From Gammaproteobacteria bacterium Ga0074134 (GTDB lineage: Bacteria; Pseudomonadota; Gammaproteobacteria; Ga0077554; Ga007554): a DNA stretch of 64,000 bases. The translations under genes were made by a program, and so were the position numbers. The notes under the pieces were generated by a model, which saw only the letters and a list, made by a program, of their open reading frames with translations, did not search any database and was not told the DNA's origin. The stretch lies in the NCBI GenBank assembly GCA_001464965.1, contig LNEJ01000060.1, positions 1 to 64,000 of the forward strand, written 5' to 3'. This document shows, piece by piece, positions 2,964 through 56,353 of the stretch (position 1 is the first letter of the stretch; each line of letters starts with the position of its first letter).

Positions 2964-5900
2964 TTATCCAGGGTAATCCGTGGATGCCGCCGCTGCATCA
3001 GTAGGGAGGGCACGCTTTTTAGCCCAACCTCTTAGCAGCACATAGAACACCGGCGTCAGCAACAGGCCGAAAAAGGTCACGCCCAGCATGCCGGCGAATA
3101 CCGCAATACCCATCGCCTGGCGGATTTCCGCACCCGCGCCGCTTGAGATCACCAGCGGAAACACGCCCATGATGAAGGCCAGTGAGGTCATCAGTATGGG
3201 ACGCAGACGCAGGCGGCAGGCTTCACGGGCGGCGGTCATTGCATCTCTGCCCTGGTCTTCGAGCACCTTGGCGAACTCGACAATGAGGATGGCGTTTTTG
3301 CACGCCAAACCTACCAGCACCACAAAGCCCATTTGCGTAAAGATGTTGTTGTCCTTACCCATGAGCCAAACCCCCACGATAGCCGACAACAGGCCCATCG
3401 GAACAATCAGGATAACCGCCAGAGGCAGCTTCAGGCTTTCATACAGCGCGGAGAGCACCAGAAATACCAGCAGCACGCAGAGCGGAAAGACCAGCATGGT
3501 GGTATTGCCGGCCAGAATTTCCTGGTAGGTAAGATCCGTCCATTCAAAACTGATGCCGTTTGGCAGGTTTTCCCTGGCGAGTTTTTCCATCATGGCCTGC
3601 GCCTGACCGGAACTGACTCCTGGCGCGGGGCCGCCGTTGATATCCGCCGAGGTATAGCCGTTGTAGCGTGACACCCGGTCCGGCCCATAGCCTTGATTTA
3701 TCTTCAGTACCGCGCCAAGCGGCACCATCTCGCCCGCCGCATTGCGCGTCTTTAGCTGGGTGATATCTTCGGCGTGCGAGCGGAAGGGGCCATCCGCCTG
3801 GGCGATGACCTGATAGGTGCGGCCAAAGCGGTTGAAATCGTTCACATACAACGATCCAAGGTAAATCTGCATGGTGTCAAAAACGTCGGTGACTGCCACG
3901 CCCTGGCGCTTGGCTTTGACGCGGTCGATGTCCGCATCGATCTGCGGCACGTTGATCTGGAAGCTTGAAAAAAGACCCGCCAAACTGGGCGTTTGATAGG
4001 CTTTCATCAGCAATCCCTGCGTGGCGCCATAAAGCTCCTCATAGCCCAGGTTGGCACGGTCTTCAATTTGCATCTTGAAGCCGCCGATCGAACCCAGGCC
4101 CATCACCGGCGGGGGTGGAAACGCTGCGGTGAAGGCACCCTGGATGCTGGAGAGTTTCTGGTTCAAGGCGCCAGCAATGGCGAACCCTGACAGGTCGGGT
4201 GTTTGACGCTCGCTAAAATCCTTTAGTCCGAAAAACACCACTCCCGCGCTGGGGCTGTTGGTAAAGCCGATGATCGACAATCCCGGAAAGGCAACAGAGT
4301 CCCGTACTCCGGGTTGCGCAAGGCCTATGTCAGACATTTTGCGAATCACTTCCTCGGTACGCTCCAGCGAAGCCCCATCGGGAAGTTGCGCGAATCCCAC
4401 CAGATATTGTTTGTCCTGGCTGGGCACAAAACCTGCGGGCACCTTGTTAAAGACCACATAGGCTGCACCGATCAGAATCAGGTATACCAGCATGGCGATG
4501 GTCTTGTGCTGGAGGACGCCGCCCACGGTGCGCACGTAGCCGTTCGATGCGCTGGAGAAAGTCCGGTTGAACAGCCTGAACAGCCAGCCGAACAAGAAAT
4601 CAAGCAGCCGCGTCGGACGATCCTTGGGCGCTTTGTGCGATTTCAGCAAGAGCGCGCACAATGCCGGGCTGAGGGTGAGCGAGTTAAAGGCGGAGATAAC
4701 CGTTGCAATGGCAATGGTCAGGGAAAACTGTTTGTAGAATTGCCCCGTCAACCCGCTGACAAAGGCCAGCGGAACGAACACGGCGCACAAGGTCAGCGAG
4801 ATGGCGATGATCGGGCCGCTCACCTCCTGCATGGCCTTGTACGTCGCATCACGCGGGTTCAATCCCAACCCAATGTTGCGCTCGACGTTCTCTACCACCA
4901 CGATGGCATCATCCACCACGATACCGATGGCAAGCACCAGGCCAAACAGGGTCAGGGTGTTGATCGAAAAGCCAAACACCCACAGCAGCGCAAACGTGCC
5001 GATAATCGATACCGGCACAGCGATCAGCGGGATCACCGAGGCGCGCCACGTCTGCAAAAACAGGATCACCACCAGCACCACCAGCGCCACGGCTTCCAGC
5101 AGTGTTTTCACCACCGCCTTGATCGAGTCGCGCACGAACACGGTGGGGTCGTAAACGATCTTGTAATCGACACCCTGCGGAAATCCGCGCTTTAGCTCTG
5201 CCATCGTTTTACGCACATTATCGGACAGCTCCAGCGCATTCGATCCTGGTGCCTGGAAAATGGGGATGGCCACGGCGGATTTATTGTTGAGCAGGCTGCG
5301 CAAGGCATAGCCGCTGGCACCCAGCTCGATGCGTGCCACATCACGCAAACGGGTGGTGGCGCCATCAGGCGTTGCCTTGATGATGATGTCGCCAAACTGT
5401 TCCTCGGTAACGAGTCTGCCTGCGGCGTTGATGCTTAGCTGAAAATCCACGCCCGGAGGGGTGGGCGGGGCGCCGATCACGCCGGCAGCCACCTGCAGGT
5501 TTTGCTCACGAATTGCGGCTACCACATCGCTGGCGGTGAGATTGCGCGCCGCCACTTTTTGTGGGTCGAGCCATACCCGCATCGAATAATCGCCCGCGCC
5601 AAATATAAGCACTTGGCCCACACCCGATACCCGCGCCAGTGCATCCTTCACGTTGAGCAGCGCGTAGTTGCGCAGGTAGATGGCATCATAGCGCTCATCC
5701 GGCGAGAGCAGATGCACCACCATGGTGAGATCGGGTGAACTCTTGACGGTCGTCACGCCAAACTGTCGCACTTCCGCGGGTAGCCTGGGGAGCGCCTGTG
5801 AAACACGGTTTTGCACCTGCACCTGCGCGGTATCGATGTCTGTGCCGAGCTTGAACGTTACCGTCAGCATCATCACGCCATCGGCGTTGGCCTGGGATGA

Positions 5901-6140
5901 CATGTACAGCATATTTTCCACGCCGTTGATCTGCTCCTCCAGCGGCGAAGCGACGGTTTCGGCGATCACCTTGGGATTCGCGCCGGGGTAGGTGGCGCGC
6001 ACCACCACCGAGGGCGGGACAACCTCGGGATATTCGCTCAATGGCAGCTGCGGAATCGCCAGAGCACCCGCCAAGAAAATCAGGATGGACAGCACCGCCG
6101 CAAAGATCGGACGGTCGATAAAGAACCGGGAAAAGTTCAT
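2964..6140 (-). CDS. RND efflux permease, HAE1 family (MexF/OqxB-like)
   Basis: 1058 residues, full length for an inner-membrane RND drug/proton antiporter. The N-terminus MNFSRFFIDRPIFAAVLS and the EYPEVVPPSVVVRATYPGAN segment resemble MexF and OqxB more than AcrB. The proton-relay aspartate pair is in VVDDAIVVVENVERN near residue 405-420, and the partner lysine is in GLACKNAILIVEFAK near 940. Two large periplasmic loops are present. It starts 15 bp after the adaptor stop, forming an adaptor-pump operon. No outer-membrane factor is encoded nearby, so a TolC-type partner must come from elsewhere. The exact substrate is unknown. Confidence 0.95.
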   Translation of the reverse strand: MNFSRFFIDRPIFAAVLSILIFLAGALAIPQLPLSEYPEVVPPSVVVRATYPGANPKVIAETVASPLEEQINGVENMLYMSSQANADGVMMLTVTFKLGTDIDTAQVQVQNRVSQALPRLPAEVRQFGVTTVKSSPDLTMVVHLLSPDERYDAIYLRNYALLNVKDALARVSGVGQVLIFGAGDYSMRVWLDPQKVAARNLTASDVVAAIREQNLQVAAGVIGAPPTPPGVDFQLSINAAGRLVTEEQFGDIIIKATPDGATTRLRDVARIELGASGYALRSLLNNKSAVAIPIFQAPGSNALELSDNVRKTMAELKRGFPQGVDYKIVYDPTVFVRDSIKAVVKTLLEAVALVVLVVILFLQTWRASVIPLIAVPVSIIGTFALLWVFGFSINTLTLFGLVLAIGIVVDDAIVVVENVERNIGLGLNPRDATYKAMQEVSGPIIAISLTLCAVFVPLAFVSGLTGQFYKQFSLTIAIATVISAFNSLTLSPALCALLLKSHKAPKDRPTRLLDFLFGWLFRLFNRTFSSASNGYVRTVGGVLQHKTIAMLVYLILIGAAYVVFNKVPAGFVPSQDKQYLVGFAQLPDGASLERTEEVIRKMSDIGLAQPGVRDSVAFPGLSIIGFTNSPSAGVVFFGLKDFSERQTPDLSGFAIAGALNQKLSSIQGAFTAAFPPPPVMGLGSIGGFKMQIEDRANLGYEELYGATQGLLMKAYQTPSLAGLFSSFQINVPQIDADIDRVKAKRQGVAVTDVFDTMQIYLGSLYVNDFNRFGRTYQVIAQADGPFRSHAEDITQLKTRNAAGEMVPLGAVLKINQGYGPDRVSRYNGYTSADINGGPAPGVSSGQAQAMMEKLARENLPNGISFEWTDLTYQEILAGNTTMLVFPLCVLLVFLVLSALYESLKLPLAVILIVPMGLLSAIVGVWLMGKDNNIFTQMGFVVLVGLACKNAILIVEFAKVLEDQGRDAMTAAREACRLRLRPILMTSLAFIMGVFPLVISSGAGAEIRQAMGIAVFAGMLGVTFFGLLLTPVFYVLLRGWAKKRALPTDAAAASTDYPG

Positions 6141-6155
6141 GGACGTGGTCTCGCG

Positions 6156-7379
6156 CTAGTTATGCTGTGGCTGCGCGGAGTTCGCCTGGCTGTTCCCAGG
6201 CGGCTTTTCCATCGGCACCTTCTGTGGCGTGACGACAGCCCCAGGCTGCACCCTCTGCAATCCATCCACGACAATCACTTCGCCCGCCTTGAGTCCCTCT
6301 CTGACCACTCTCAGGCCATCGGCCACCGGCCCCAGCGTCACCGGGCGATAGTTCACCTTGTTATCCGGCCCGAGTACCATCACAAACTTTTTGCTTTGAT
6401 CCGTACCCACCGCGCGGTCATCAATCAATACCGCGTTATAGCGGCCGCCGCCCAGTTTAATGCGGGCAAACAGTCCCGGCGTGAACAGCCCCTGTTTGTT
6501 GTCGAAAACCGCTCTGATACGAATCGTGCCTGTTGCAGGATCAAGCCGGTTGTCGATGAAGTCCAGGTACCCTTGGTGCGGGTAGCCTTGCTCGTTGCTC
6601 AGCCCCATGGATACCGGGTTGCGGGCTGTCTTTTTCGTTGCTGCGGCGTATTTGAGGTAGGCATGTTCATCGCCTTCAAAGTAGGCGTAAATGGGATCAT
6701 GCGACACCACCGTGGTCAGCACGGTCGCGCCTGCATCACCACCCGTGACAAGATTGCCGGTGGTCACTTCGGCACGCCCGGCGCGGCCACTGATGGGTGA
6801 TGTGACACGGGTATAACTAAGGTTTAGGCGTGCCAGATCAACCGCCGCCTTTGCCGCACGCACGCTCGCTTCCGATTGGTGCTGAGCGCTGGCGCGGTCG
6901 TCGTACTCCTGTTGCGCTATCATCCGCGCCTGGAGTAATTTTTCCGCGCGTGCAAGCTGGCTTTTATCAAGCTCCGCTTGGGCAAGGGAGCGCGCCAGAT
7001 CCGCTTCGGCGCGGTTCAAGTCTGCGCGATAGGGGCCGGGGTCGATAACGAACAGCACCTCACCCTTCTTCACATCCTTGCCCTGCTGGAAAGCGATGCT
7101 GTCGATATACCCCGTCACCCGTGAACGCACCTGTACGCTTTCCACCGCCTCCAGCCGGCCAGAAAACTCATCCGAGTCGGCCACTTGCCGTTCGATCACG
7201 CTGGCAACGCTGACTTGGGGTGGCGGAGGAGGCGGTGGCGCCTGGGTTTCGGGATTACGGCACGCCGAGGTGAACAAGGCCACCGGCAGGAGGAGTAATG
7301 CGCTCGCCCATCGCCTGCTGGGCGCGGCCATCAATACCGGAAAAAGTTTAAAGCCGGATTTCCATGGCAGGATCGTCAT
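6156..7379 (-). CDS. RND periplasmic adaptor (MexE/OqxA-like membrane fusion protein)
   Basis: 407 residues. A second methionine (MAAPSRRWASALLLLPVALF) begins a lipoprotein signal with the lipobox FTSAC near residue 40, so the mature protein is probably anchored to the inner membrane. An all-proline run precedes the first lipoyl half. VRSRVTGYIDSIAFQQGKDV is the lipoyl/barrel-sandwich motif, the AEADLARSLAQAELDKSQLA region forms the helical hairpin, and SPISGRAGRAEV is the second lipoyl half. It bridges the pump and an outer-membrane channel. It is the first gene of the minus-strand operon, divergent from the LysR gene across 95 bp. Confidence 0.93.
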   Translation of the reverse strand: MTILPWKSGFKLFPVLMAAPSRRWASALLLLPVALFTSACRNPETQAPPPPPPPQVSVASVIERQVADSDEFSGRLEAVESVQVRSRVTGYIDSIAFQQGKDVKKGEVLFVIDPGPYRADLNRAEADLARSLAQAELDKSQLARAEKLLQARMIAQQEYDDRASAQHQSEASVRAAKAAVDLARLNLSYTRVTSPISGRAGRAEVTTGNLVTGGDAGATVLTTVVSHDPIYAYFEGDEHAYLKYAAATKKTARNPVSMGLSNEQGYPHQGYLDFIDNRLDPATGTIRIRAVFDNKQGLFTPGLFARIKLGGGRYNAVLIDDRAVGTDQSKKFVMVLGPDNKVNYRPVTLGPVADGLRVVREGLKAGEVIVVDGLQRVQPGAVVTPQKVPMEKPPGNSQANSAQPQHN

Positions 7380-46257: not shown

Positions 46258-46815
46258 CTATTCCTTCTTCTGCGCCTTGTTGAGCAGGTTCGCAATATCG
46301 GCATGATCCTCCTTGACCGCCATCATCATTGCTGTCCAACCTTCCTTATTTTTGATGTTCGGATCGGCGCCCTTGGCCAGCAGTAGCTTCACGATTTCGA
46401 TGTACCCCTCGAACGCCGCCCAGTGCAACGCTGTCCCGCCGCTGTCTTCTTGCGCGTTGATGTCGGCGCCACGCGCCAGCAGTGCTTCCACGATGGCGAT
46501 ATGCCCTTTCTGGGCAGCCCGCGCCAAGGGGGTCCAGCCCATGTGATCCTTGACGTTAACCTGCGCGCCACCGGCGAGCAGCAGTTTGACCATCTCCAGA
46601 TTCCCCGATCTCGCCGCGTGCGTTAACGCCGTCCAATCGTATTTATTTTTTGCGTTGACATCAACCCCTTGCGCCAGCATCTGCTTGACCGCCGCCGTGT
46701 CGCCATCCATCACCTTTTCCATCAAGGGGGTATTTTTGTCACCGCCCGCCACCAGCAAAATAATCAGCCCGGCAACCATAAAGGCAATGATGATGAAAAT
46801 TCTTCGGCGAACCAT
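46258..46815 (-). CDS. Ankyrin-repeat protein with N-terminal membrane anchor
   Basis: 185 residues. An N-terminal transmembrane or uncleaved signal segment (RIFIIIAFMVAGLIILLVAG, about 5-24) is followed by four or five ankyrin repeats. These carry the usual G-W-T-A/P-L-x-x-A-A and V-K-L-L-L-x-x-G-A patterns: YDWTALTHAARSGNLEMVKL, MGWTPLARAAQKGHIAIVEA, GGTALHWAAFEGYIEIVKLL. The repeats probably face the periplasm and bind a protein. Partner unknown. Confidence 0.9.
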   Translation of the reverse strand: MVRRRIFIIIAFMVAGLIILLVAGGDKNTPLMEKVMDGDTAAVKQMLAQGVDVNAKNKYDWTALTHAARSGNLEMVKLLLAGGAQVNVKDHMGWTPLARAAQKGHIAIVEALLARGADINAQEDSGGTALHWAAFEGYIEIVKLLLAKGADPNIKNKEGWTAMMMAVKEDHADIANLLNKAQKKE

Positions 46816-46916: not shown

Positions 46917-47849
46917 TTACAGGTGATAGCCAAAGCTATCCTTGAAGCGGGCGTAAAATTCCTCGCGCTCGAAGCGGTGGTTCTGGGTGCCGTGATGCTC
47001 GATCTTGATCGCCCCCATGAGAGAAGCGACGCGGCCGGTGGTTTCCCAATCCATGCCGTTCATCAAGCCGTATAGCAGGCCGGCGCGGTAGGCATCGCCA
47101 CAGCCGGTGGGGTCCGCCACCGCCTTGGGTGCGGCGCAGGGAATGTCGATGCGCTTGCTTGCGGTATAGATGTGCGAACCCTCGCCGCCAAGCGTGATGA
47201 TCAGTGCATCGACATGCTCGGCCAGTTCGTGCGGCGACTTGCCGGTACGCTCCTGCATGAGCTGTGCTTCATAGTCATTGAGCGTCACCCAGGTGGCCTG
47301 CTCGACGAACTTCATCAGGTCATCGCCGTCAAACATGGGCATGCCCTGGCCGGGATCAAATATGAAGGGGATGCCCGCTTCGGCAAACTGGGTGGCGTGT
47401 TGCAGCATGCCTTCGCGGCCGTCGGGCGAAACTATGCCAAGAGTAACGCCTGCGGCGTTTTCAACCTGATTTTCATGGGAAAAATTCATTGCGCCGGGAT
47501 GAAAGGCGGTAATCTGGTTGTCGTCCATGTCGGTGGTGATGAAGGCCTGCGCAGTGTAGGTGTTGTCGATCACCCTGACGTGCTCAAGGCCGACGCCGCA
47601 ACGCCCCAGCCATTCGGCATAGGGACCGAAGTCCGCCCCCACCGTCCCCATCAGCGCAGGCTCGCCGCCCAGCAGCTTGAGATTATAGGCGATATTTCCC
47701 GCGCAGCCGCCAAACTCGCGGCGCATGTTTGCCACCAGAAAGGACACATTCAGGATATGCACCTTGTCAGGCAGGATGTGATTCTTGAATTTGTCATGAA
47801 ACAGCATGATGGTATCATAGGCAATGGATCCACAGATCAGGGCTGACAT
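46917..47849 (-). CDS. PfkB-family carbohydrate/nucleoside kinase
   Basis: 310 residues. The PfkB signatures are EFGGCAGNIAYNLKLLGGEP near residue 47-65 and DPTGCGDAYRAGLLYGL near 252-268, the latter holding the catalytic Asp and the anion hole. ITTDMDDNQITAFHPGAMNF and FDPGQGMPMFDGDDLMKFV are further conserved parts. The nearest type in my memory is the adenosine/ribokinase-like group in gammaproteobacteria. The sugar or nucleoside is unknown. It is divergent from the TPR-TolQR operon, across 260 bp. Confidence 0.9.
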   Translation of the reverse strand: MSALICGSIAYDTIMLFHDKFKNHILPDKVHILNVSFLVANMRREFGGCAGNIAYNLKLLGGEPALMGTVGADFGPYAEWLGRCGVGLEHVRVIDNTYTAQAFITTDMDDNQITAFHPGAMNFSHENQVENAAGVTLGIVSPDGREGMLQHATQFAEAGIPFIFDPGQGMPMFDGDDLMKFVEQATWVTLNDYEAQLMQERTGKSPHELAEHVDALIITLGGEGSHIYTASKRIDIPCAAPKAVADPTGCGDAYRAGLLYGLMNGMDWETTGRVASLMGAIKIEHHGTQNHRFEREEFYARFKDSFGYHL

Positions 47850-48109: not shown

Positions 48110-48673
48110 ATGACACGTATTACCAGGATAATCCCGCTCTTGCTTTTATGTCCACTCATGGTGGCAGGGGTCGGCTATGCCCAGGAAATCCCCGCTGGTA
48201 CTACAGCGCAAACGTTGCGGGGCGAGCTTCTTTCTCTGAACGACAAGGTGCAGTCTCTCCAAAAAACGGCGGTGGACATAAACCGCGACCTCACCCTCCT
48301 TGAGGAAGAGGCACAGTTCCCCGAAAGGTCTCGGATAGCCGTCTTTCTGGGTATGGACCGCTTGCCGCGCTTCGATCTGGACGCCGTTGAATTAAGTGTG
48401 AATGGCAAAATTGTGGCCACTCATACGTATACACCTGAAGAGACGGCAGCGCTGCAACTTGGCGGCATACATCGGCTCTATATCGGCAACCTGAATGATG
48501 GCGAGCAGCTATTATCCGCCATTTTCAAGGGAAAAACGCCGGCTAATCCGCGCTACCGCAGCAACGCCTTTCTTAATTTCAAAAAAGGGCAAAAACCAAA
48601 GTTTATTGTGCTGGGCATTAGCGATCTTCTCCAGGACAACACGCCAGCAATGACAGTGAGAGAGGCGCAGTAG
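48110..48673 (+). CDS. Secreted protein, first gene of the TPR-TolQR-AgmX operon
   Basis: 187 residues. A signal peptide (RIIPLLLLCPLMVAGVGYAQ) is cleaved after YAQ. A predicted helical or coiled-coil segment (GELLSLNDKVQSLQKTAVDI) follows, then a beta-rich domain (FDLDAVELSVNGKIVATHTY, GGIHRLYIGNLNDGEQLLSA). I do not recognise the family. It lies 11 bp before the first TPR gene, so it is probably the first cistron. A periplasmic structural role is inferred from context. Confidence 0.8.
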   Translation: MTRITRIIPLLLLCPLMVAGVGYAQEIPAGTTAQTLRGELLSLNDKVQSLQKTAVDINRDLTLLEEEAQFPERSRIAVFLGMDRLPRFDLDAVELSVNGKIVATHTYTPEETAALQLGGIHRLYIGNLNDGEQLLSAIFKGKTPANPRYRSNAFLNFKKGQKPKFIVLGISDLLQDNTPAMTVREAQ

Positions 48674-48684
48674 GCGTAAATTCC

Positions 48685-50109
48685 ATGGGGTACTCAGCCA
48701 TAAGGTATTCTCTAGCGCGCGGGATCACATTCCTTATCGCAAGCCTGTTGCTAACGGCAGCTAATGCAGCGGATGATCTTCGAGGCGATCTCTCCTGGAA
48801 GGTAAAAGACCCCCATTTCGGCGCAGCATTATTCGATTTCTACCGGGGCGATAACTTCTCTGCCATAACACGGCTAACAGTCGCACAAGAAACCCACGCC
48901 CTGGTTAGCCAGGAACAAGAGGGTAACCTTCTGCTGGGCATGCTTTACCTTGCCAGTGACATGCCCAACGAGGCGCAGAAGGTTTTTTCACGTCTTATAA
49001 GCGACGGCTCCTCCTCGTCTATTGGCGACATTGCCAGCCTTTATTCCGCACAAATACTTTACGGCCAAGGCGCCTACCCGGCGGCAGAGCAACTTCTCTC
49101 AACGATTGAAGATTTGCCAGGAAAGCTGCGCATAAAGCAGGACTTGCTCCTGGCAAATCTCTTGATAGCAAAAAAACAATTTCAGAAAGCAGAACCACTC
49201 TTGCTGCGCCTGAACAGCGATACCAGGCAAGGCTATTACAGCCGCCATAATCTCGCGGTGAGCATGCTCAAGGACGGCGTATCATCGCAAGGTGCGGGAT
49301 TGCTTGATGGCATCAGCAAAGAAATTTTTTCTGATTCTGAACTAAAGGCATTACAGGACAAGGCCAATCTTGCCCTCGGATACCATTATCTTCAAAAAAA
49401 AGAGCCTGCTTTAGCCAAGGTGTACTTCCAGAAAGTCAGGCTGGACAGCTATTTTTCCCCGAAAGCCTTGCTAGGCTCAGGATTTGCGGAGGCGGCGCAA
49501 AATCAGCATCAACGCGCACTCATCCCGTGGATGGAGTTGGCGCAGCGGGAGATAAGGGATGTAGAAACGCAAGAGGCTTTGCTGGCCGTACCTGCCACCT
49601 TATTCAAACTCGAATCTTATAAAGAGGCGCAGAAACACTATCAGAACGCTATTTCCCACTATGACGCGGAAGCATTGCGTGTCAAACAGTCGATAGACGC
49701 GATTCGCGCAGGAAAACTGGAAAATAATATTCTGCGTCTTGATGCGGGTGATGATGCGCAATGGCAAAACACGCTAAAAAAGCTGCCGGATGCGCCGGAG
49801 AGTCACTATTTCCCGTGGCTAATGGAAAATCCGCAGATACAGGAAGCCGTTTTGCTTTATCGAAAATCTCTCGCCCTGCAGAATATTCTGGAACAGCAGC
49901 GGTCACGCCGCATATCCACGGTAAACGCGCGCATTGATCAGGCCTTGGCGGAAGCACATGGCCTGATGCAAAAGCTGGAGGCCTATATACAGAAAACCAC
50001 CCTTTCCGAGCTATCGCTGCGCGAACAACGTTTGGACAAGTATCTTACGCAAGCGAAACTTGGCGTAGCGGATCTTTATAATCATGCTGCGGCACGGGGA
50101 GACGAGTAA
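48685..50109 (+). CDS. Periplasmic TPR protein
   Basis: 474 residues with a signal peptide (ARGITFLIASLLLTAANAAD). The body is helical with degenerate TPR pairs, such as EGNLLLGMLYLASDMPNEAQ, ANLLIAKKQFQKAEPLLLRL, DKANLALGYHYLQKKEPALA and KVYFQKVRLDSYFSPKALLG. The C-terminus (NILEQQRSRRISTVNARIDQ, QALAEAHGLMQKLEAYIQKT) has coiled-coil character. Glt-type machines carry periplasmic TPR proteins of this size (GltD/GltE in Myxococcus). It is 11 bp after the first gene. Confidence 0.85.
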   Translation: MGYSAIRYSLARGITFLIASLLLTAANAADDLRGDLSWKVKDPHFGAALFDFYRGDNFSAITRLTVAQETHALVSQEQEGNLLLGMLYLASDMPNEAQKVFSRLISDGSSSSIGDIASLYSAQILYGQGAYPAAEQLLSTIEDLPGKLRIKQDLLLANLLIAKKQFQKAEPLLLRLNSDTRQGYYSRHNLAVSMLKDGVSSQGAGLLDGISKEIFSDSELKALQDKANLALGYHYLQKKEPALAKVYFQKVRLDSYFSPKALLGSGFAEAAQNQHQRALIPWMELAQREIRDVETQEALLAVPATLFKLESYKEAQKHYQNAISHYDAEALRVKQSIDAIRAGKLENNILRLDAGDDAQWQNTLKKLPDAPESHYFPWLMENPQIQEAVLLYRKSLALQNILEQQRSRRISTVNARIDQALAEAHGLMQKLEAYIQKTTLSELSLREQRLDKYLTQAKLGVADLYNHAAARGDE

Positions 50110-50110
50110 G

Positions 50111-53100
50111 TTGAAACGCTACTGTCGCCTGATCTCATTACCCTTGCTTATTCTTACTGGCTGCGCGCAGGTAAAAGACGATAGCCCAACGCTCAAAAGC
50201 CTGGAGCACCGCAGTATTTCCGTCGAAAAGGATACCACCATCCCGGACAGCCGCAGCAAGGCCATCGAACAGTATCAATCCATCGCGGGCGCGACGAATG
50301 ATAAATCCGTCCAGCGCGAGGCAAAACGCAAGATTGCCGATCTGGAGGTGGATAATGCAGAGGCCATTTTCCTGGAAAAGATCAAAAAATCGGGTCAGGA
50401 TGCCCAAACCAGCGCGCCGCCGCCCCCCGTTGACAATCGCAATGCGATTAATCTGTACCAGGAGCTGTTGCAGGAACAGACCCCCAAATCCGACGCTGAA
50501 GACACGTTGTATCAATTGGCTAAAGCGTATGAGCAAAGCGGTGATTATCAAAACACCCTCCAAACACTGACCCGCCTGGCCAATTCCTATCCCAAGATAG
50601 GCTACATGGATGAGGTCCAGTTCCGGCGCGGGGAAATTCTGTTTACATTAAAGGACTACGCCCAGGCCGAGAAAGCCTATGTCTCCCTCTTGCCCCTGAA
50701 AAAATCCCAGTTTTACGAGATGGGGCTGTATAAACATGGCTGGAGCCTGTACAAGCAGGAACAGTATTTGCCGGCCCTCGATTCTTTTTTTGCGATTCTG
50801 GACAAAAAATTTCCCGTGAACAAAGTCGTAGCCGATGACTTTGTCTTGCCGCGCGGAGAACAAGAGTTTGTAAAGGACACGCTGCGCGTTATCAGCCTCA
50901 GTTTTTATCACCTCAATGGCGCGGAATCGATCACCTCGTATCTTTCCGCCAAAGGCTATCGCCCGTATGAGCACCTTCTGTATAAGTCCCTCGGTGACCT
51001 TGCCCTTGAGAAAGACCGCGTCAGCGACGCTGTAAACAGCTACAGGGCCTACATCAAGGTGCATCCGGGCCATCCCTACAGTGTGCTCATGCAGCAGAGA
51101 ATCATCGATGCCTACAATAGGCCTGAGTTCGCCTCCTTGCTACTGCCTGAAAAACGGGAATTTGTCCGCCTCTATGATGACTACAATCAACACCGCATCA
51201 GCAATTCCACAAAAACATATGCCGAACACCTGATTTACGGCGACAAAATCGCCCAAGACAAGATTATTCCCTATTTAAGGGGCATCCTTGAGGATTTGGC
51301 CCGCCATTATCATGCTGAAGCGCAAAAGAGCAAGACACGCACGGCATACAAGGAGGCCATGGATTGGTATACGAAATTCCTGAAAAATTTCCCCGCGGAC
51401 AAGGACGCCCCAGGCATCACTTTCCTGCTCGCTGAAAGCCTGTATGAAAATGGACGCTATGCCGATGCGGTCACACGTTACGAAAATGTCGCCTATGATT
51501 TTCCCGCCAATAAAAACAGCGCGGAGGCGGGCTACGCGGCCCTGCTCGCTTATCAGAAACAGGGGGAAAAACTCTCGGGTTATGAAAAAAATCTGTGGCG
51601 GCGCAATGCCGTGGTGAGCGCGATGCGGTTCTCCGAAAAGTATCCCAAGGACAAACGAGTACCCGCCGTTCTGGTCTCCGCGATGGAGGAGCTGTTCTCC
51701 CTGAAGCAGTATGACAAGGCGAAGTCCGCCGCGCGGCTCATTCTGAAAATGGAGCCGCCCGCTGATATCAAGCAACGCGGTCTGGCGACAACCATCATTG
51801 CGCACGCAGAGTTCGAGCAGGATAATTTTGAAGGCGCGGAGGCGAGCTACCGCGAGGCATTGAATCTACTCCCTGCGAATGACCCAGGCAGGGTGGATAT
51901 CATGGAGAATCTGGCATCGGCGATATACCGGCAAGGTGAAAAATCCCGTACTGCAGGTGACATGCCAGCGGCGATCCTGCACTTCCTGCGGGTCGGCGCG
52001 GCGGCGCCTGCGTCACCCATCCGCCTCTCGGCGGAATATGACGCCGCTGTCGGCTATATGTCGCTAAACGACTGGAATACCGCGCTGCGCATCTTCAGCC
52101 AGTTCCAGAAAACCTACCCTGACAACGCCTTCCAGGCCGACGTGTCGCGGCAAATGGTAACGGCCTACCTTCAGTTGGACCAGCCTGCAAAGGCCGCCGC
52201 CGAACTTGAAAAGACCATTGCCAGCACCCAGGATGCCACGGTTCGCCAGGGCGCCGCATGGCAAGCCGCAGAGCTTTATGAGAAAGCCAAGGACACCAAG
52301 AACGCCGCCAGAATTTATGGCCTATATGTTGAACGGTTCCCCAGCCCGCTGGAACAGGCCATCGAGGCGCGCCGCCGCCTCGCAGAAGCCTATAAACAGG
52401 CTAATGACACGAACATGCAAAATCATTGGCTGAAGGACATCATCAAGGCGGAACGGGAAGGTGGCACGGAGCGCACGCCGCGCACCCGCCAAGCCGCGGC
52501 CCATGCCTCAATCACATTGGCAGATCTCGCCTATCAGGCATTTGCCCAGGTACGGCTGGTTGAACCATTGCAACAGAATTTGAAAATCAAAAAGGAGAAA
52601 ATGGAGCTCGCCTTGCAGGCCTATGGTATTGCCGCTGAATTTGGCGTGGCGGATGTAACAACCGCCGCGACGTATCAGATGGCAAAGATATACAGCGACC
52701 TTAGCCATGACCTGCTTGAATCCCAGCGCCCCGAAGGGCTCACCCCCGAGGAGCGGGAGCAATATGATGTGCTCCTGGAAGAGCAGGCCTTTCCGTTTGA
52801 AGAGAAGGCCATCCAGATATATGAGTCGAATATCCGGCGCGTATCCTCCGGCATCTATGACGAATCGGTCAGGAAAAGCTTTTCCGAGCTGGCTAAACTA
52901 TTGCCGGTCAAATACGCAAAGCACGAGAAAAGCGAACCTTTGAGCGGCGTTACGTTGAACAATGACGGCAAGGATGAAGACGAAAAGGCATTGATTAAAG
53001 CAACAGAGCAAGTTCCGCTGAACATCGAGACCTATAACCATCTTGGCATTCATTATCGCAACAGGGGGCGCTTCGGTGATGCACGCACTGCCTACGAAAA

Positions 53101-53302
53101 AGCCTTGGCCATCGACCAGAATCATGCATCGATCCACCTGAATCTTGGCATACTTTACGATCTTTATCTGCGTGACGCCGGCAAGGCGCTGGAACAGTAT
53201 CGGCTCTATCAAAGCCTGCTGCCGGCCGCAGACAAGCAGGTGGGGCTGTGGATCGCGGAGCTGGAAAAACGCAAAAATGGTGCGGAGGTAAAGGACAAAT
53301 GA
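50111..53302 (+). CDS. Large TPR lipoprotein
   Basis: About 1063 residues. I chose the TTG at 50111, giving MKRYCRLISLPLLILTGCAQ, a clean lipoprotein signal with lipobox LTGC, and a GGGGAGACGAG site eight bases before it. An ATG at 50084 in the same frame lacks both. TPR motifs run through most of the length, for example LYQLAKAYEQSGDYQNTLQT, EAGYAALLAYQKQGEKLSGY and a canonical final unit NHLGIHYRNRGRFGDARTAY followed by EKALAIDQNHASIHLNLGIL. It would be anchored in the outer or inner membrane and act as the large scaffold. It overlaps the next gene by 4 bp. Confidence 0.88.
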   Translation: MKRYCRLISLPLLILTGCAQVKDDSPTLKSLEHRSISVEKDTTIPDSRSKAIEQYQSIAGATNDKSVQREAKRKIADLEVDNAEAIFLEKIKKSGQDAQTSAPPPPVDNRNAINLYQELLQEQTPKSDAEDTLYQLAKAYEQSGDYQNTLQTLTRLANSYPKIGYMDEVQFRRGEILFTLKDYAQAEKAYVSLLPLKKSQFYEMGLYKHGWSLYKQEQYLPALDSFFAILDKKFPVNKVVADDFVLPRGEQEFVKDTLRVISLSFYHLNGAESITSYLSAKGYRPYEHLLYKSLGDLALEKDRVSDAVNSYRAYIKVHPGHPYSVLMQQRIIDAYNRPEFASLLLPEKREFVRLYDDYNQHRISNSTKTYAEHLIYGDKIAQDKIIPYLRGILEDLARHYHAEAQKSKTRTAYKEAMDWYTKFLKNFPADKDAPGITFLLAESLYENGRYADAVTRYENVAYDFPANKNSAEAGYAALLAYQKQGEKLSGYEKNLWRRNAVVSAMRFSEKYPKDKRVPAVLVSAMEELFSLKQYDKAKSAARLILKMEPPADIKQRGLATTIIAHAEFEQDNFEGAEASYREALNLLPANDPGRVDIMENLASAIYRQGEKSRTAGDMPAAILHFLRVGAAAPASPIRLSAEYDAAVGYMSLNDWNTALRIFSQFQKTYPDNAFQADVSRQMVTAYLQLDQPAKAAAELEKTIASTQDATVRQGAAWQAAELYEKAKDTKNAARIYGLYVERFPSPLEQAIEARRRLAEAYKQANDTNMQNHWLKDIIKAEREGGTERTPRTRQAAAHASITLADLAYQAFAQVRLVEPLQQNLKIKKEKMELALQAYGIAAEFGVADVTTAATYQMAKIYSDLSHDLLESQRPEGLTPEEREQYDVLLEEQAFPFEEKAIQIYESNIRRVSSGIYDESVRKSFSELAKLLPVKYAKHEKSEPLSGVTLNNDGKDEDEKALIKATEQVPLNIETYNHLGIHYRNRGRFGDARTAYEKALAIDQNHASIHLNLGILYDLYLRDAGKALEQYRLYQSLLPAADKQVGLWIAELEKRKNGAEVKDK

Positions 53303-53574
53303 AGCCATCAGTGCTTTTTATCATGGGAATTTTATATTTGTCTGCCGGTGTTTCGGCGGCGGCGGAGTCCATCGATGCTTCGGGCACGAAAATCATCGGT
53401 GATTCGGACATGCCAAAAACACTCTACATCGTCCCGTGGAAGAAACCGGAAACGGCCCCGCCCCCGTCACCAAGCCGCTCAATGAACGAGTTCGCCAGCG
53501 CAGCCTTTGCAACACTGGAGCGGGATACCCTGTTACGCCAGATGCAATACCACGCGATTTTCAGTACCCGGTAA
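53299..53574 (+). CDS. Small secreted protein of the TPR-TolQR-AgmX operon
   Basis: 91 residues. The start ATGA overlaps the stop of the large TPR gene, showing translational coupling. A signal peptide (MKPSVLFIMGILYLSAGVSA) is followed by SIDASGTKIIGDSDMPKTLY and IVPWKKPE, a compact motif that I believe is shared by small genes in the same place in other such clusters (memory, not checked). The C-terminal half (FASAAFATLERDTLLRQMQY) may form an amphipathic helix. Function unknown. Confidence 0.8.
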   Translation: MKPSVLFIMGILYLSAGVSAAAESIDASGTKIIGDSDMPKTLYIVPWKKPETAPPPSPSRSMNEFASAAFATLERDTLLRQMQYHAIFSTR

Positions 53575-53660
53575 AGCAGAATTTCTTCTCATCAACCATC
53601 AAGATTATTGCCTGAAATGCCGAATACAAGGCAGGCATGACGCAGCATTAGGAGATCAGC

Positions 53661-54314
53661 ATGGATTTTTTCAGTTCCTCAATCCGTTTTTTTCAAGACG
53701 GCGGTTTTATCATGTACTTCATCCTCGGGATATTCGCCCTGGGAATTGCTATCGCCATCGAGCGCTACCTTTTCCTGACTTCCGCCCGGAGCAGAAACCG
53801 GGAAATGTGGGACAAGCTGCTGCCGGTGCTAAAGCGTGGCGAATACAAAGCCGCGCAAGACATGATGTCGCAGTCCAGCGCCACCATCAGCAACATTTTG
53901 TCCTACGGCCTATCCCGGCTTGCTACCAGCCGGCGCCATGACGATGTTGAAACCGCCATGGAAGAAGGGCTCCTGGAAACCGTTCCGCGCCTGGAAAAAC
54001 GCACGCACTACCTCACCACTTTCGCCAATGTTGCCACCCTGCTGGGGTTGCTCGGCACGGTCATCGGCCTGATTGATGCGTTTACCGCCGTCTCCAGCGC
54101 CAACCCCTCCGAAAAGGCCGCGCTGCTTTCCGCCAGTATTTCCGTGGGCATGAACTCGACGGCATTCGGATTGATGGTGGCGATCCCGCTGCTGCTGATT
54201 TATAGCGTGCTCCAATCCAAAACCGTTGAGCTGGTAGACAGCCTGGAGATGGCGTCAGTGAAAGTATTGAACATCATCAAGGAGCACACCGACAAGCAAG
54301 GCTCAACGCAATGA
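53661..54314 (+). CDS. MotA/TolQ/ExbB-family proton channel protein
   Basis: 217 residues. Three transmembrane helices are visible: IMYFILGIFALGIAIAIERY (about 14-34), TTFANVATLLGLLGTVIGLI (about 113-134) and GMNSTAFGLMVAIPLLLIYS (about 160-180). The LLGTVIGLI helix and the GMNSTAFGL motif are the core TolQ/ExbB signatures. It should form the channel subunit with the two ExbD-like proteins. An 87-bp gap with AGGAGATC before the ATG separates it from the small gene. It overlaps the next gene by 4 bp. Confidence 0.93.
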   Translation: MDFFSSSIRFFQDGGFIMYFILGIFALGIAIAIERYLFLTSARSRNREMWDKLLPVLKRGEYKAAQDMMSQSSATISNILSYGLSRLATSRRHDDVETAMEEGLLETVPRLEKRTHYLTTFANVATLLGLLGTVIGLIDAFTAVSSANPSEKAALLSASISVGMNSTAFGLMVAIPLLLIYSVLQSKTVELVDSLEMASVKVLNIIKEHTDKQGSTQ

Positions 54315-54808
54315 AGCGCCGTAACCTTCTCGCACGCAACGAGGGTGACGAGCTGGATCTTACCGCCATGATCAACATGATGGTGATTCTGGTATGCTTT
54401 CTGTTGACCTCGGCGGTATTTTCACGCATCACGGTGATGGAGCTGAATATGCCTCCCGCCGCCCAGGCATCATCCAGTAGCGCGCCCCAGCCGAAGAAAG
54501 AGCTTCTTCTGGAGGTTATCCTCCGTAAAAATGCCATTGAAATAAATGACCGGAACGGCAGCTTTTTTGAACGGATCAACAATTTATCCGGCAGCTACGA
54601 CATCAAATCCCTGGCGCAGAATCTTCATCAGTTAAAGGCGCGCTTTCCGGAAAAACGGGACGCCTCCATCCTGCTGGAAGATGACATTCCCTATGATCTT
54701 CTGGTGCAGGTGATGGATGCGTTACGCGAGGAAAGAAGCGGGGCAACGGGATCCGCCGAGCTTTTCCCTGATATATCCATTGGTGACGCCCCTGCGGCGC
54801 GAAAATAA
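54311..54808 (+). CDS. ExbD/TolR-family protein with Asn in place of the channel Asp
   Basis: 165 residues. One transmembrane helix, DLTAMINMMVILVCFLLTSA (about 16-35), is followed by a periplasmic domain. ExbD and TolR carry a conserved proton-binding Asp in LxPxID; here the aligned position is Asn22 (AMINMMV). The C-terminus (DASILLEDDIPYDLLVQVMD) is typical. It may be a partner that does not itself carry the proton, working with the second ExbD protein, which keeps its Asp. The start overlaps the channel gene by 4 bp. Confidence 0.9.
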   Translation: MKRRNLLARNEGDELDLTAMINMMVILVCFLLTSAVFSRITVMELNMPPAAQASSSSAPQPKKELLLEVILRKNAIEINDRNGSFFERINNLSGSYDIKSLAQNLHQLKARFPEKRDASILLEDDIPYDLLVQVMDALREERSGATGSAELFPDISIGDAPAARK

Positions 54809-54832
54809 TAACAAGGGATACGGATAGCCGAT

Positions 54833-55321
54833 ATGAAAATGTCACGGCGCGCCAGACGCATGGAGCGGCACCACGCTCGAACAAAACGAGGCAGCAAACT
54901 CAACCTGATTGCCCTGGTTGATATTTTCACCATCCTGGTGTTTTTTCTTGTGGTTGGCGCCTCCGATGTGGAAATTCTGCCCAACACCAAGGTGGTGAAA
55001 CTTCCCGAATCCATCGTTGAAAAACAGCCCAAGCAAACCATCCTGATCATGGTGAGCGGAACCGACATTATCATGCAGGGCCGCAAGGTGGCCTCCGTGA
55101 AAGACGTGCTGAGCGCCCCCGAAGATGTCATCGCGCCACTGAAAAACGAGCTGGATCATCAAGCCGGGCGGCAGGGTGGCAAAACCAGCAGCGACATCAC
55201 CATCATGGGGGACCGTCAAATTCCCTACAAGCTCTTGAAGAAAATCATGGTTACATGCACACAAGCCAATTACAGCAATATTTTTCTCGCTGTGATGCAA
55301 AAACCAAGAACGGCGGGGTAG
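54833..55321 (+). CDS. ExbD/TolR-family protein, second copy
   Basis: 162 residues. A basic N-terminus (RRARRMERHHARTKRG) leads into one transmembrane helix, NLIALVDIFTILVFFLVVGA, which carries the conserved Asp30 in LVDIF. The periplasmic part has PKQTILIMVSGTDIIMQGRK and the ExbD-like end ITIMGDRQIPYKLLKKIMVT. Two ExbD-like genes beside one channel gene is the arrangement of the AglRQS gliding motor (known family), and fits this operon. It starts 24 bp after the first copy. Confidence 0.9.
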   Translation: MKMSRRARRMERHHARTKRGSKLNLIALVDIFTILVFFLVVGASDVEILPNTKVVKLPESIVEKQPKQTILIMVSGTDIIMQGRKVASVKDVLSAPEDVIAPLKNELDHQAGRQGGKTSSDITIMGDRQIPYKLLKKIMVTCTQANYSNIFLAVMQKPRTAG

Positions 55322-55327
55322 CAGGCT

Positions 55328-56353
55328 GTGGCTGTTCAATACCATTCCCCCGGTCTACCCCTCTCGGTGAGCGCGATAAGCGACCAGGACGAACGCCGTT
55401 TTCGGGTGATCCTGACATCGGTGCTGGCAGGCTTTCTGGTGATTTCGAGCGTCATCACTTTTATCCAGGTTCCAAAAATCACCCGGGAGCAAGCCGAGGA
55501 GGTGCCGCCACGGCTGGCCAAGCTGGTGCTTGAACGCAAGCAGCTCCCCCCTCCGGTTGCGAAGCCCTCGCCCGTAAAGCCACTAGCCGCAAAGCCGGAA
55601 CAAGCGCCCAAGCCGAAAGCGGAGCTAAAAATCAAGCCCCAGCCCGAGAAGAAAATCGAGCCTGTGCAAGTGGTCAAACAAGAGCCCGCGCCAATACCGG
55701 CACCGCTGCCCGCAGAGCCACCCAAGGTCAACATCGAAGCCGCGCGCAAGAAGGCGGCCAGCTCGGGCCTGCTGGCGTTGAGCAACGAGCTGGCGACATT
55801 GCGCGACAAGCCCGTCGTACCCAGCACTCAAGCGGACGAGAAACTTGTCCAGTCCACCAAGACCGAACCCTTTGTGCAGCGCTCAATGATCACTTCTGGC
55901 ACGGCTCGCGGGAGCGAGGGGATAAATACCGCCAGCGCCAGCCGCAACATCAGTGGTACGCAACTGGCGGAACGGACAACGACACGCGTCAACAACCCGC
56001 AACCCACGGCGCGCCCTGGCGAGACTGCGGCACCTAAAGCCGCCACGCAAAAAAGCGGCAGCTCGCGCACCGACGATGAAATTCAACTGGTTTTCGATAA
56101 GAACAAAGGGGCGCTGTATTCGCTGTATAACCGCGCGCTCCGGCAGGATCCATCGCTGCAAGGTAAGGTAGTGCTCAAGCTGACCATCGAACCCTCCGGA
56201 AAGGTCAGCGCTTGCGAGATAGTGTCCAGTGCGATGGACGCGCCCGAACTGATACAAAAGATCGTGGCGCGGGTATTGCTTTTCGACTTCGGAGCCAAGG
56301 AAGCCGCCACCACCGTGACCAAACTTCCCATCGATTTTTTGCCATCGTCGTGA
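55328..56353 (+). CDS. AgmX/PglI C-terminal-domain protein, TonB-like
   Basis: 341 residues. A transmembrane helix (VILTSVLAGFLVISSVITFI, about 27-48) follows a cytoplasmic start. Residues 70-135 are Pro/Lys-rich (VAKPSPVKPLAAKPEQAPKP), long enough to span the periplasm. The C-terminal part (DEIQLVFDKNKGALYSLYNR, VVLKLTIEPSGKVSACEIVS) matches the AgmX/PglI TonB-like domain. It should transmit the motor's force to the envelope partners. It ends the eight-gene series, 6 bp after the second ExbD-like gene. Confidence 0.9.
   Translation: MAVQYHSPGLPLSVSAISDQDERRFRVILTSVLAGFLVISSVITFIQVPKITREQAEEVPPRLAKLVLERKQLPPPVAKPSPVKPLAAKPEQAPKPKAELKIKPQPEKKIEPVQVVKQEPAPIPAPLPAEPPKVNIEAARKKAASSGLLALSNELATLRDKPVVPSTQADEKLVQSTKTEPFVQRSMITSGTARGSEGINTASASRNISGTQLAERTTTRVNNPQPTARPGETAAPKAATQKSGSSRTDDEIQLVFDKNKGALYSLYNRALRQDPSLQGKVVLKLTIEPSGKVSACEIVSSAMDAPELIQKIVARVLLFDFGAKEAATTVTKLPIDFLPSS

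Follow-up and report, generated by a model that had tools for sequence, protein, structure and literature searches.

A probable standalone Agl-Glt-type core operon in a gammaproteobacterium, with one TolR-like subunit carrying Asn at the proton site

Described Agl-Glt systems and the present locus

Motors of the 5:2 rotary superfamily turn proton flow into movement. The operon described here, which is provisionally placed in this superfamily from homology, comprises eight genes (g1 to g8) at positions 48110-56353 of a 64,000-nt stretch of DNA (the window) from Gammaproteobacteria bacterium Ga0074134 (contig LNEJ01000060.1 of assembly GCA_001464965.1, positions 1-64,000, forward strand). The closest described system is the core complex of Luciano et al. 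(2011; PMC3169522), in which gltC, gltD, gltE, gltG, aglR, aglQ and aglS lie in one region. Its carriers are Gammaproteobacteria, one betaproteobacterium, Geobacter and Fibrobacter, and their clusters hold one additional gene. The core is proposed to be ancestral, the gliding machinery having been built from it; it is considered unlikely to drive motility alone, and its function in the carriers is left open (PMC3169522). It has also been regarded as a standalone machinery, maybe a basal transport machine (PMC3858216).

In Myxococcus xanthus, AglR contacts GltG (PMC3169522), and the substitution D28N in AglQ leaves no proton conductance and a paralysed machine (PMC3858216). AglQ and AglS are both described with a conserved Asp, and it is stated not to be known whether each pairs with the other or with itself (PMC9389320). 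Known motor models contain a dimer with two Asp residues (PMC12215075), and the current models of ExbBD, TolQR and MotAB assume a two-Asp axle.

Judged from its sequence, the operon is best read as a standalone Agl-Glt core complex (Group B), an already-described system to which no function has been assigned. What is new is that one predicted axle subunit, g6, almost always lacks the proton-carrying Asp, which makes the motor unusual in a testable way. The observation is sound: the system is known but uncharacterised, and an unexpected, readily testable motor feature and a new functional lead are now added to it.

Unequal axle subunits and a distinct channel

At the proton-site position, g6 has Asn in 101/103 clusters (L039 and L066 being the same contig), and g7 has Asp in 101/101 resolved. 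Nine further clusters from a phylum-wide draw repeat the split without exception (g6 Asn 9/9, g7 Asp 9/9), and bring the g6 total to Asn in 110/112. The proteins of the window follow it with Asn22 in g6 and Asp30 in g7, and the Asp in both TolR-like subunits that is a trait of M. xanthus AglRQS is not present here. Both g6 sequences with Asp (L054 and L095) are sisters nested within the g6 clade, and Asn therefore looks ancestral in g6 within the sampled sequences. Other TolR/ExbD proteins have Asp in 52/53; the sole Asn, kept as a true exception, is in the second of a tandem ExbD pair (L184). This unrelated pair (G044:C331:10500-15000, ORF 2186-2617) may represent an independent instance of unequal axle subunits.

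The channel g5 carries changes of its own. Thr126 is found in 101/102 core channels, against Pro in 49/49 TolQ/ExbB, and Asn165 in 102/102, against I, V, L or M in 49/49 TolQ/ExbB. In the aligned sequences these two residues are diagnostic of the core-channel clade, and the pore threonines T133 and T167 are retained. In the channel tree the core channels occupy one side of a branch with a support of 100, opposite 47 TolQ/ExbB-type channels. This split was obtained with one very long-branch row and two other poor rows left out; the long branch in the first tree was considered as evidence against a core clade and rejected, the split being clean without these rows. The g6 and g7 proteins each form a single clade (98 each), are sisters (88), and stand apart from 55 other ExbD/TolR proteins, including those of the genome itself and E. 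coli ExbD and TolR.

An axle made of Asn subunits only should be dead, given that AglQ D28N paralyses the M. xanthus machine, and the simplest reading would be an obligate pairing of g6 with g7, giving an axle that has one proton site. No prior report of a one-Asp heterodimer axle was found in a literature search that did not extend to supplements and subscription papers, and the main text of PMC3169522 contains neither the TolR-like Asn nor the barrel and redox link described below. A natural Asn at the site where an Asp-to-Asn change kills the M. xanthus motor makes the heterodimer question of AglRQS-type motors directly testable, together with the question of whether one proton site per axle suffices.

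Gene content and relation to the core complex

All eight open reading frames (ORFs) lie on the plus strand, with gaps of 6-86 bp and overlaps of 4-26 bp. Gaps separate g1 from g2 (11 bp), g4 from g5 (86 bp), g6 from g7 (24 bp) and g7 from g8 (6 bp), and overlaps join g2 to g3 (26 bp), g3 to g4 (4 bp) and g5 to g6 (4 bp). The original prediction, made from the letters of the window, had listed eight co-directional genes with their sizes and domains, which ORFs and domain matches confirm; its close packing holds, but its overlaps of 4 bp throughout do not, that of g2 and g3 being longer.

Like the complex of PMC3169522, the operon is standalone and has in one region one AglR-like gene (g5), two TolR-like genes in the places of AglQ and AglS (g6, g7), a GltG-like AgmX-domain gene (g8), GltC-, GltD- and GltE-like tetratricopeptide repeat (TPR) genes (g2, g3) and a candidate extra gene, the named genes being assigned by domain and position. 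Like that complex too, it is a conserved cluster of Gammaproteobacteria. It differs in the fusion of the GltD-like and GltE-like genes and in having two conserved small exported genes, g1 and g4, which are candidates for the one additional gene of the paper. The core-complex identity is drawn from gene content, gene order, hidden Markov model (HMM) matches and the literature. In the HMM searches the AgmX domain of g8 lies above its cut-off, but the matches to the GltG, GltE and TonB_C models fall below theirs.

The gliding (Agl-Glt) and spore-coat (Agl-Nfs) machineries of M. xanthus share with the operon one channel with two TolR-like proteins, an AgmX-domain transducer and TPR proteins. The operon differs from them in the absence of Group A genes and in the Asn of g6, where Asp is reported in both M. 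xanthus TolR-like proteins (PMC9389320). None of the Group A genes gltA, B, F, H, I, J and K is found in the operon, GltJ being the only one also sought genome-wide; g8 is the sole AgmX-domain protein in the genome, which is therefore without GltJ. The locus had been put forward as a candidate reduced Glt-like envelope system driven by the proton-motive force (PMF). A Glt-like machine is indeed the best reading and this identification was largely right, but the system is that of Luciano et al. (2011) and not a new one, and 'reduced' is probably backwards, since in PMC3169522 the core is taken for the ancestral state, which gliding expands.

By alignment, the 1072-residue g3 is a GltD-like protein fused to a GltE-like one; most lineages encode the two separately, as TPR lipoproteins of ~940 and ~220 residues. 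The GltE-like part is a separate gene in 86/94 loci with g3; fused genes are seen in the window's family and at L054, L095 and L118 (the contig of L095 ends early). In L047, L048, L051 and L091 the GltC-like and GltD-like genes (g2 and g3) seem to be fused instead.

Distribution and conservation of gene order

The transducer g8 is present in 24/76 related genomes, comprising 7/8 of the window's family and 17/68 of other families of the class. Of 23 neighbourhoods retrieved from related genomes, most preserve the order g1-g8. When named genomes were scanned with the channel alignment, 80 loci emerged, nearly all of them titled as Gammaproteobacteria or Proteobacteria, and where the contig is long enough nearly all share this order; no title of Myxococcota, Bdellovibrionota or Geobacter was among the 80. 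In 299 Pseudomonadota genomes, drawn evenly, core-type channels were found in ten, all Gammaproteobacteria, and were well set off, with core channels at <=6.6e-89 and every other channel at >=1.4e-36. Clusters fetched from nine places of this draw again have the same order. The gene order is common to about 100 gammaproteobacterial loci, far beyond chance, in agreement with the conservation on which the prediction had staked itself. Microbulbifer, which can be cultured, is among the carriers. A search of plasmids returned three weak Vibrio matches for the channel and none for g3, and a search of phages none.

Some Gammaproteobacteria have two core clusters (Luciano et al., PMC3169522). Two divergent core clusters are found in one genome of the present set (G245:C1:709686 and C1:2104827; L261 and L267).

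Linked outer-membrane and flavin/thiol genes

Clustering of flanking genes, combined with family searches, identified a set that lies upstream of g1 in many lineages. It consists of one or two OMP_myx_plus barrels (TIGR04565), a TlpA/ResA-like thioredoxin, DUF4266 (a small CXC protein), DUF3570 and ApbE. In 35/61 loci with enough flank, at least one gene of the set lies on the same strand no more than 6 kb upstream, and in L130, L135 and L140 TlpA is placed between g8 and g1. In the independent draw, the succession barrel-TlpA-DUF4266-DUF3570 stands directly upstream in L262, L263, L266 and L268.

Co-occurrence was counted over 68 families other than that of the window, of which 17 are represented by a genome that has g8 and 51 by one that lacks it. 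DUF3570 occurs in 13 of the former and 5 of the latter (p=4.5e-7), OMP_myx_plus in 10 and 1 (p=6.6e-7), and DUF4266 in 11 and 5 (p=2e-5). These three associations stay significant among genomes of >=2.4 Mb, where ApbE alone loses significance. In the window's family, which has the operon, searches gave no DUF3570, no DUF4266 and no OMP_myx_plus above cut-off, and ApbE is located elsewhere; the machine here would therefore work without the set or with unrecognised partners.

ApbE flavinylates DUF3570, and these genes are described as together making up a thiol/flavin system for electron transfer, the role of which is uncertain (Meheust et al., 2021; PMC8238504). The four gene families of those flavinylation clusters (DUF3570, DUF4266, thioredoxin, ApbE) adjoin the core operon in many relatives; the main text of PMC8238504 mentions neither ExbD nor TPR genes, and DUF3570 and DUF4266 are absent from the window's family. 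The link to ApbE, DUF3570, DUF4266, TlpA and OMP_myx_plus is the first concrete lead found to the targets of the core complex.

An exported protein of ~536 residues with a Tat-like start (SRRDFL) and no Pfam or NCBIfam match also flanks the core operon in several lineages (L044:14773-16383). Its relatives are found in L058, L083, L092, L093, L127, L129 and L136, and the carriers include lucinid and tubeworm symbionts.

Proposed mechanism and alternative explanations

The gene content, conserved order, clades, Asn/Asp split, channel changes, fusion and genomic links reported above are combined here with a PMF drive and an AglR-GltG contact, both taken by analogy from published M. xanthus work. 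In the standalone core complex so pictured, g5 is predicted to form an inner-membrane pentamer around an axle of g6 and g7, most likely a heterodimer in which g7 alone has an Asp that can be protonated. Protons passing this one-Asp axle would rotate it and move the TonB-like g8, which may pass the force to the periplasmic TPR proteins g2 and g3, the latter a lipoprotein of the outer membrane; together with g1 and g4, both small and exported, these would act on outer-membrane or surface cargo. The output would most likely be envelope transport or remodelling, and less so gliding. We regard this model as rather probable. Several points weigh against it: g8 matches the GltG model at domain level (E=1.4e-9, 37 bits, cut-off 650), the separate GltE-like proteins (g3b) match the GltE model NF033758 at ~1e-9 (6.9e-10 and 1.8e-9), below its cut-off, and orthology to the named Glt and Agl proteins would thus rest on content, order, weak model matches and the paper; moreover, both the heterodimer and the cargo are inferred. 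A wider proposal is offered tentatively, namely that gammaproteobacterial cores may constitute a distinct motor of the 5:2 class, with an obligately asymmetric one-Asp axle and a channel with invariant Thr and Asn, driving an outer-membrane barrel and flavin/thiol apparatus in many lineages.

It is highly improbable that the operon encodes a variant of Tol-Pal or an uptake system of the TonB/ExbBD type, for which the weak match of g8 to TonB_C (20.6 bits, cut-off 24.6) would speak. The operon shares with those systems the motor superfamily (MotA_ExbB, ExbD) and the topology of a TonB-like transducer, but its channel and ExbD-like proteins fall outside TolQ/ExbB and TolR/ExbD, which also answers the suggestion that they might group with TonB-dependent uptake. 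It further differs from them in its two unequal ExbD-like subunits, in channel Thr126 and Asn165, and in the AgmX domain that replaces TonB_C, and the conserved TonB-type His was not found in the transmembrane helix of g8. Neither pal, tolA, tolB nor a receptor lies beside the operon, and the genome has a complete Tol-Pal (G000:C39), ExbBD-MsbA, two TonB-ExbBD sets and MotAB elsewhere (names read from ORFs and order), so that the earlier exclusion of Tol-Pal was correct. On clades and context both the Tol-Pal and the TonB readings were rejected. The prediction had also left the output as motility, transport or anchoring, of which transport is favoured and motility the least likely. A surface-motility (gliding) machine of the host would account for the parts held in common with M. 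xanthus Agl-Glt, but we consider it improbable in an operon without Group A genes and a genome without GltJ: PMC3169522 argues that the core alone does not drive motility, and the genome encodes chemotaxis and flagellar-type MotAB genes.

Two further explanations concern the axle and the cargo. The conducting axle may be a g7 homodimer with two Asp residues, g6 being non-conducting, for instance a peptidoglycan anchor or a brake outside the pore. Such an axle would suit the Asp of every resolved g7, the two-Asp dimer of known models (PMC12215075) and the statement that AglQ and AglS may be homo- or heterodimeric (PMC9389320). It is nevertheless doubtful, as the transmembrane helix of g6 is of ExbD type and as well conserved as that of g7, which is expected for a position in the pore, and the channel has its own invariant polar changes. 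Compatible with the core-complex model is the idea that the machine serves an outer-membrane flavin/thiol redox system; its true task would then be the one displayed by carriers with the barrel, ApbE, DUF4266 and TlpA genes, a set that the window's family would have lost or replaced. The upstream set, its independent clusters and the co-occurrence of DUF3570 and OMP_myx_plus with g8 speak for such a cargo, but ~4 in 10 loci with enough flank have no set nearby, and it is not obligatory, since the window's family keeps the operon without DUF3570, DUF4266 or an above-cut-off OMP_myx_plus; in this general form the idea appears rather unlikely.

Features of the locus and its surroundings

Coordinates of the genes and their parts, with the basis of each assignment, are given in Table 1.

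Table 1. Predicted features of the core operon (positions in the window)
Feature	Position	Strand	Basis
g1: exported protein, 187 aa, N-terminal coiled coil and beta-sandwich	48110..48673	+	ORF; conserved in cluster
g2: exported TPR protein, 474 aa; positional counterpart of GltC	48685..50109	+	ORF, domains, gene order
g3: TPR lipoprotein, 1072 aa, lipobox LTGC; putative GltD-like/GltE-like fusion	50084..53302	+	domains, alignment ranges
GltD-like part of g3, residues ~16-951	50129..52936	+	alignment to separate genes elsewhere
GltE-like part of g3 (C-terminal TPR part of GltE-like lipoprotein), residues ~955-1063	52946..53272	+	alignment
g4: small exported protein, 91 aa	53299..53574	+	ORF, conservation in cluster
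g5: TolQ/ExbB/AglR-like channel, 217 aa	53661..54314	+	Pfam MotA_ExbB 9.9e-28; clade split 100
Codon of g5 Asn165 (E. coli ExbB Leu179 position)	54153..54155	+	residue comparison
g6: first ExbD/TolR-like axle subunit, 165 aa; positional counterpart of AglQ	54311..54808	+	ExbD 4.7e-17
Codon of g6 Asn22 (site of conserved ExbD/TolR Asp)	54374..54376	+	alignment
g7: second ExbD/TolR-like axle subunit, 162 aa; positional counterpart of AglS	54833..55321	+	ExbD 6.2e-12
Codon of g7 Asp30	54920..54922	+	alignment
g8: TonB-like transducer, 341 aa, GTG start; counterpart of GltG	55328..56353	+	domain search
AgmX/PglI C-terminal domain of g8	56069..56338	+	NF033768, 60.9 bits, cut-off 40

No Pfam family matches g1. 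Its AlphaFold model (predicted local distance difference test score, pLDDT, 81) has a helix at residues 29-69 followed by strands at 75-185; the fold is a generic beta-sandwich, and a structure search of the PDB gave no match at E<=0.001. The length of g2 is ~620 aa in many other lineages. The small g4 has the conserved motif IIG(N/S)xExPKxxYIVPWK, and a family search of its sequence gave no family. The transducer g8 consists of one transmembrane helix, a Pro/Lys-rich linker and the AgmX/PglI C-terminal domain; in the PDB search it had no match, and the channel profile matched TolQ/ExbB only.

The flanking genes lie on the opposite strand and are unrelated, with a PfkB kinase upstream and a citrate synthase downstream. 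Scans for promoters and terminators did not yield a useful boundary of the operon, and an Rfam search gave no match. The divergent PfkB-type kinase (window 46917-47849, minus strand) recurs as a neighbour at about six other loci, L091 among them, in most cases ~240 bp upstream. A small exported ankyrin-repeat protein of 185 aa is encoded near the operon (window 46258-46815, minus strand).

Two other motor-like loci were noted in the genome of the window. One (L064; G000:C49) encodes a 597-aa protein with an exported N-terminal region and an ExbB channel, followed by ExbD. The other (L065; G000:C35, ORFs 4734-5504 and 5497-6573) encodes a MotA_ExbB channel of 358 aa and a partner of 256 aa without a Pfam family, and is possibly another PMF motor.

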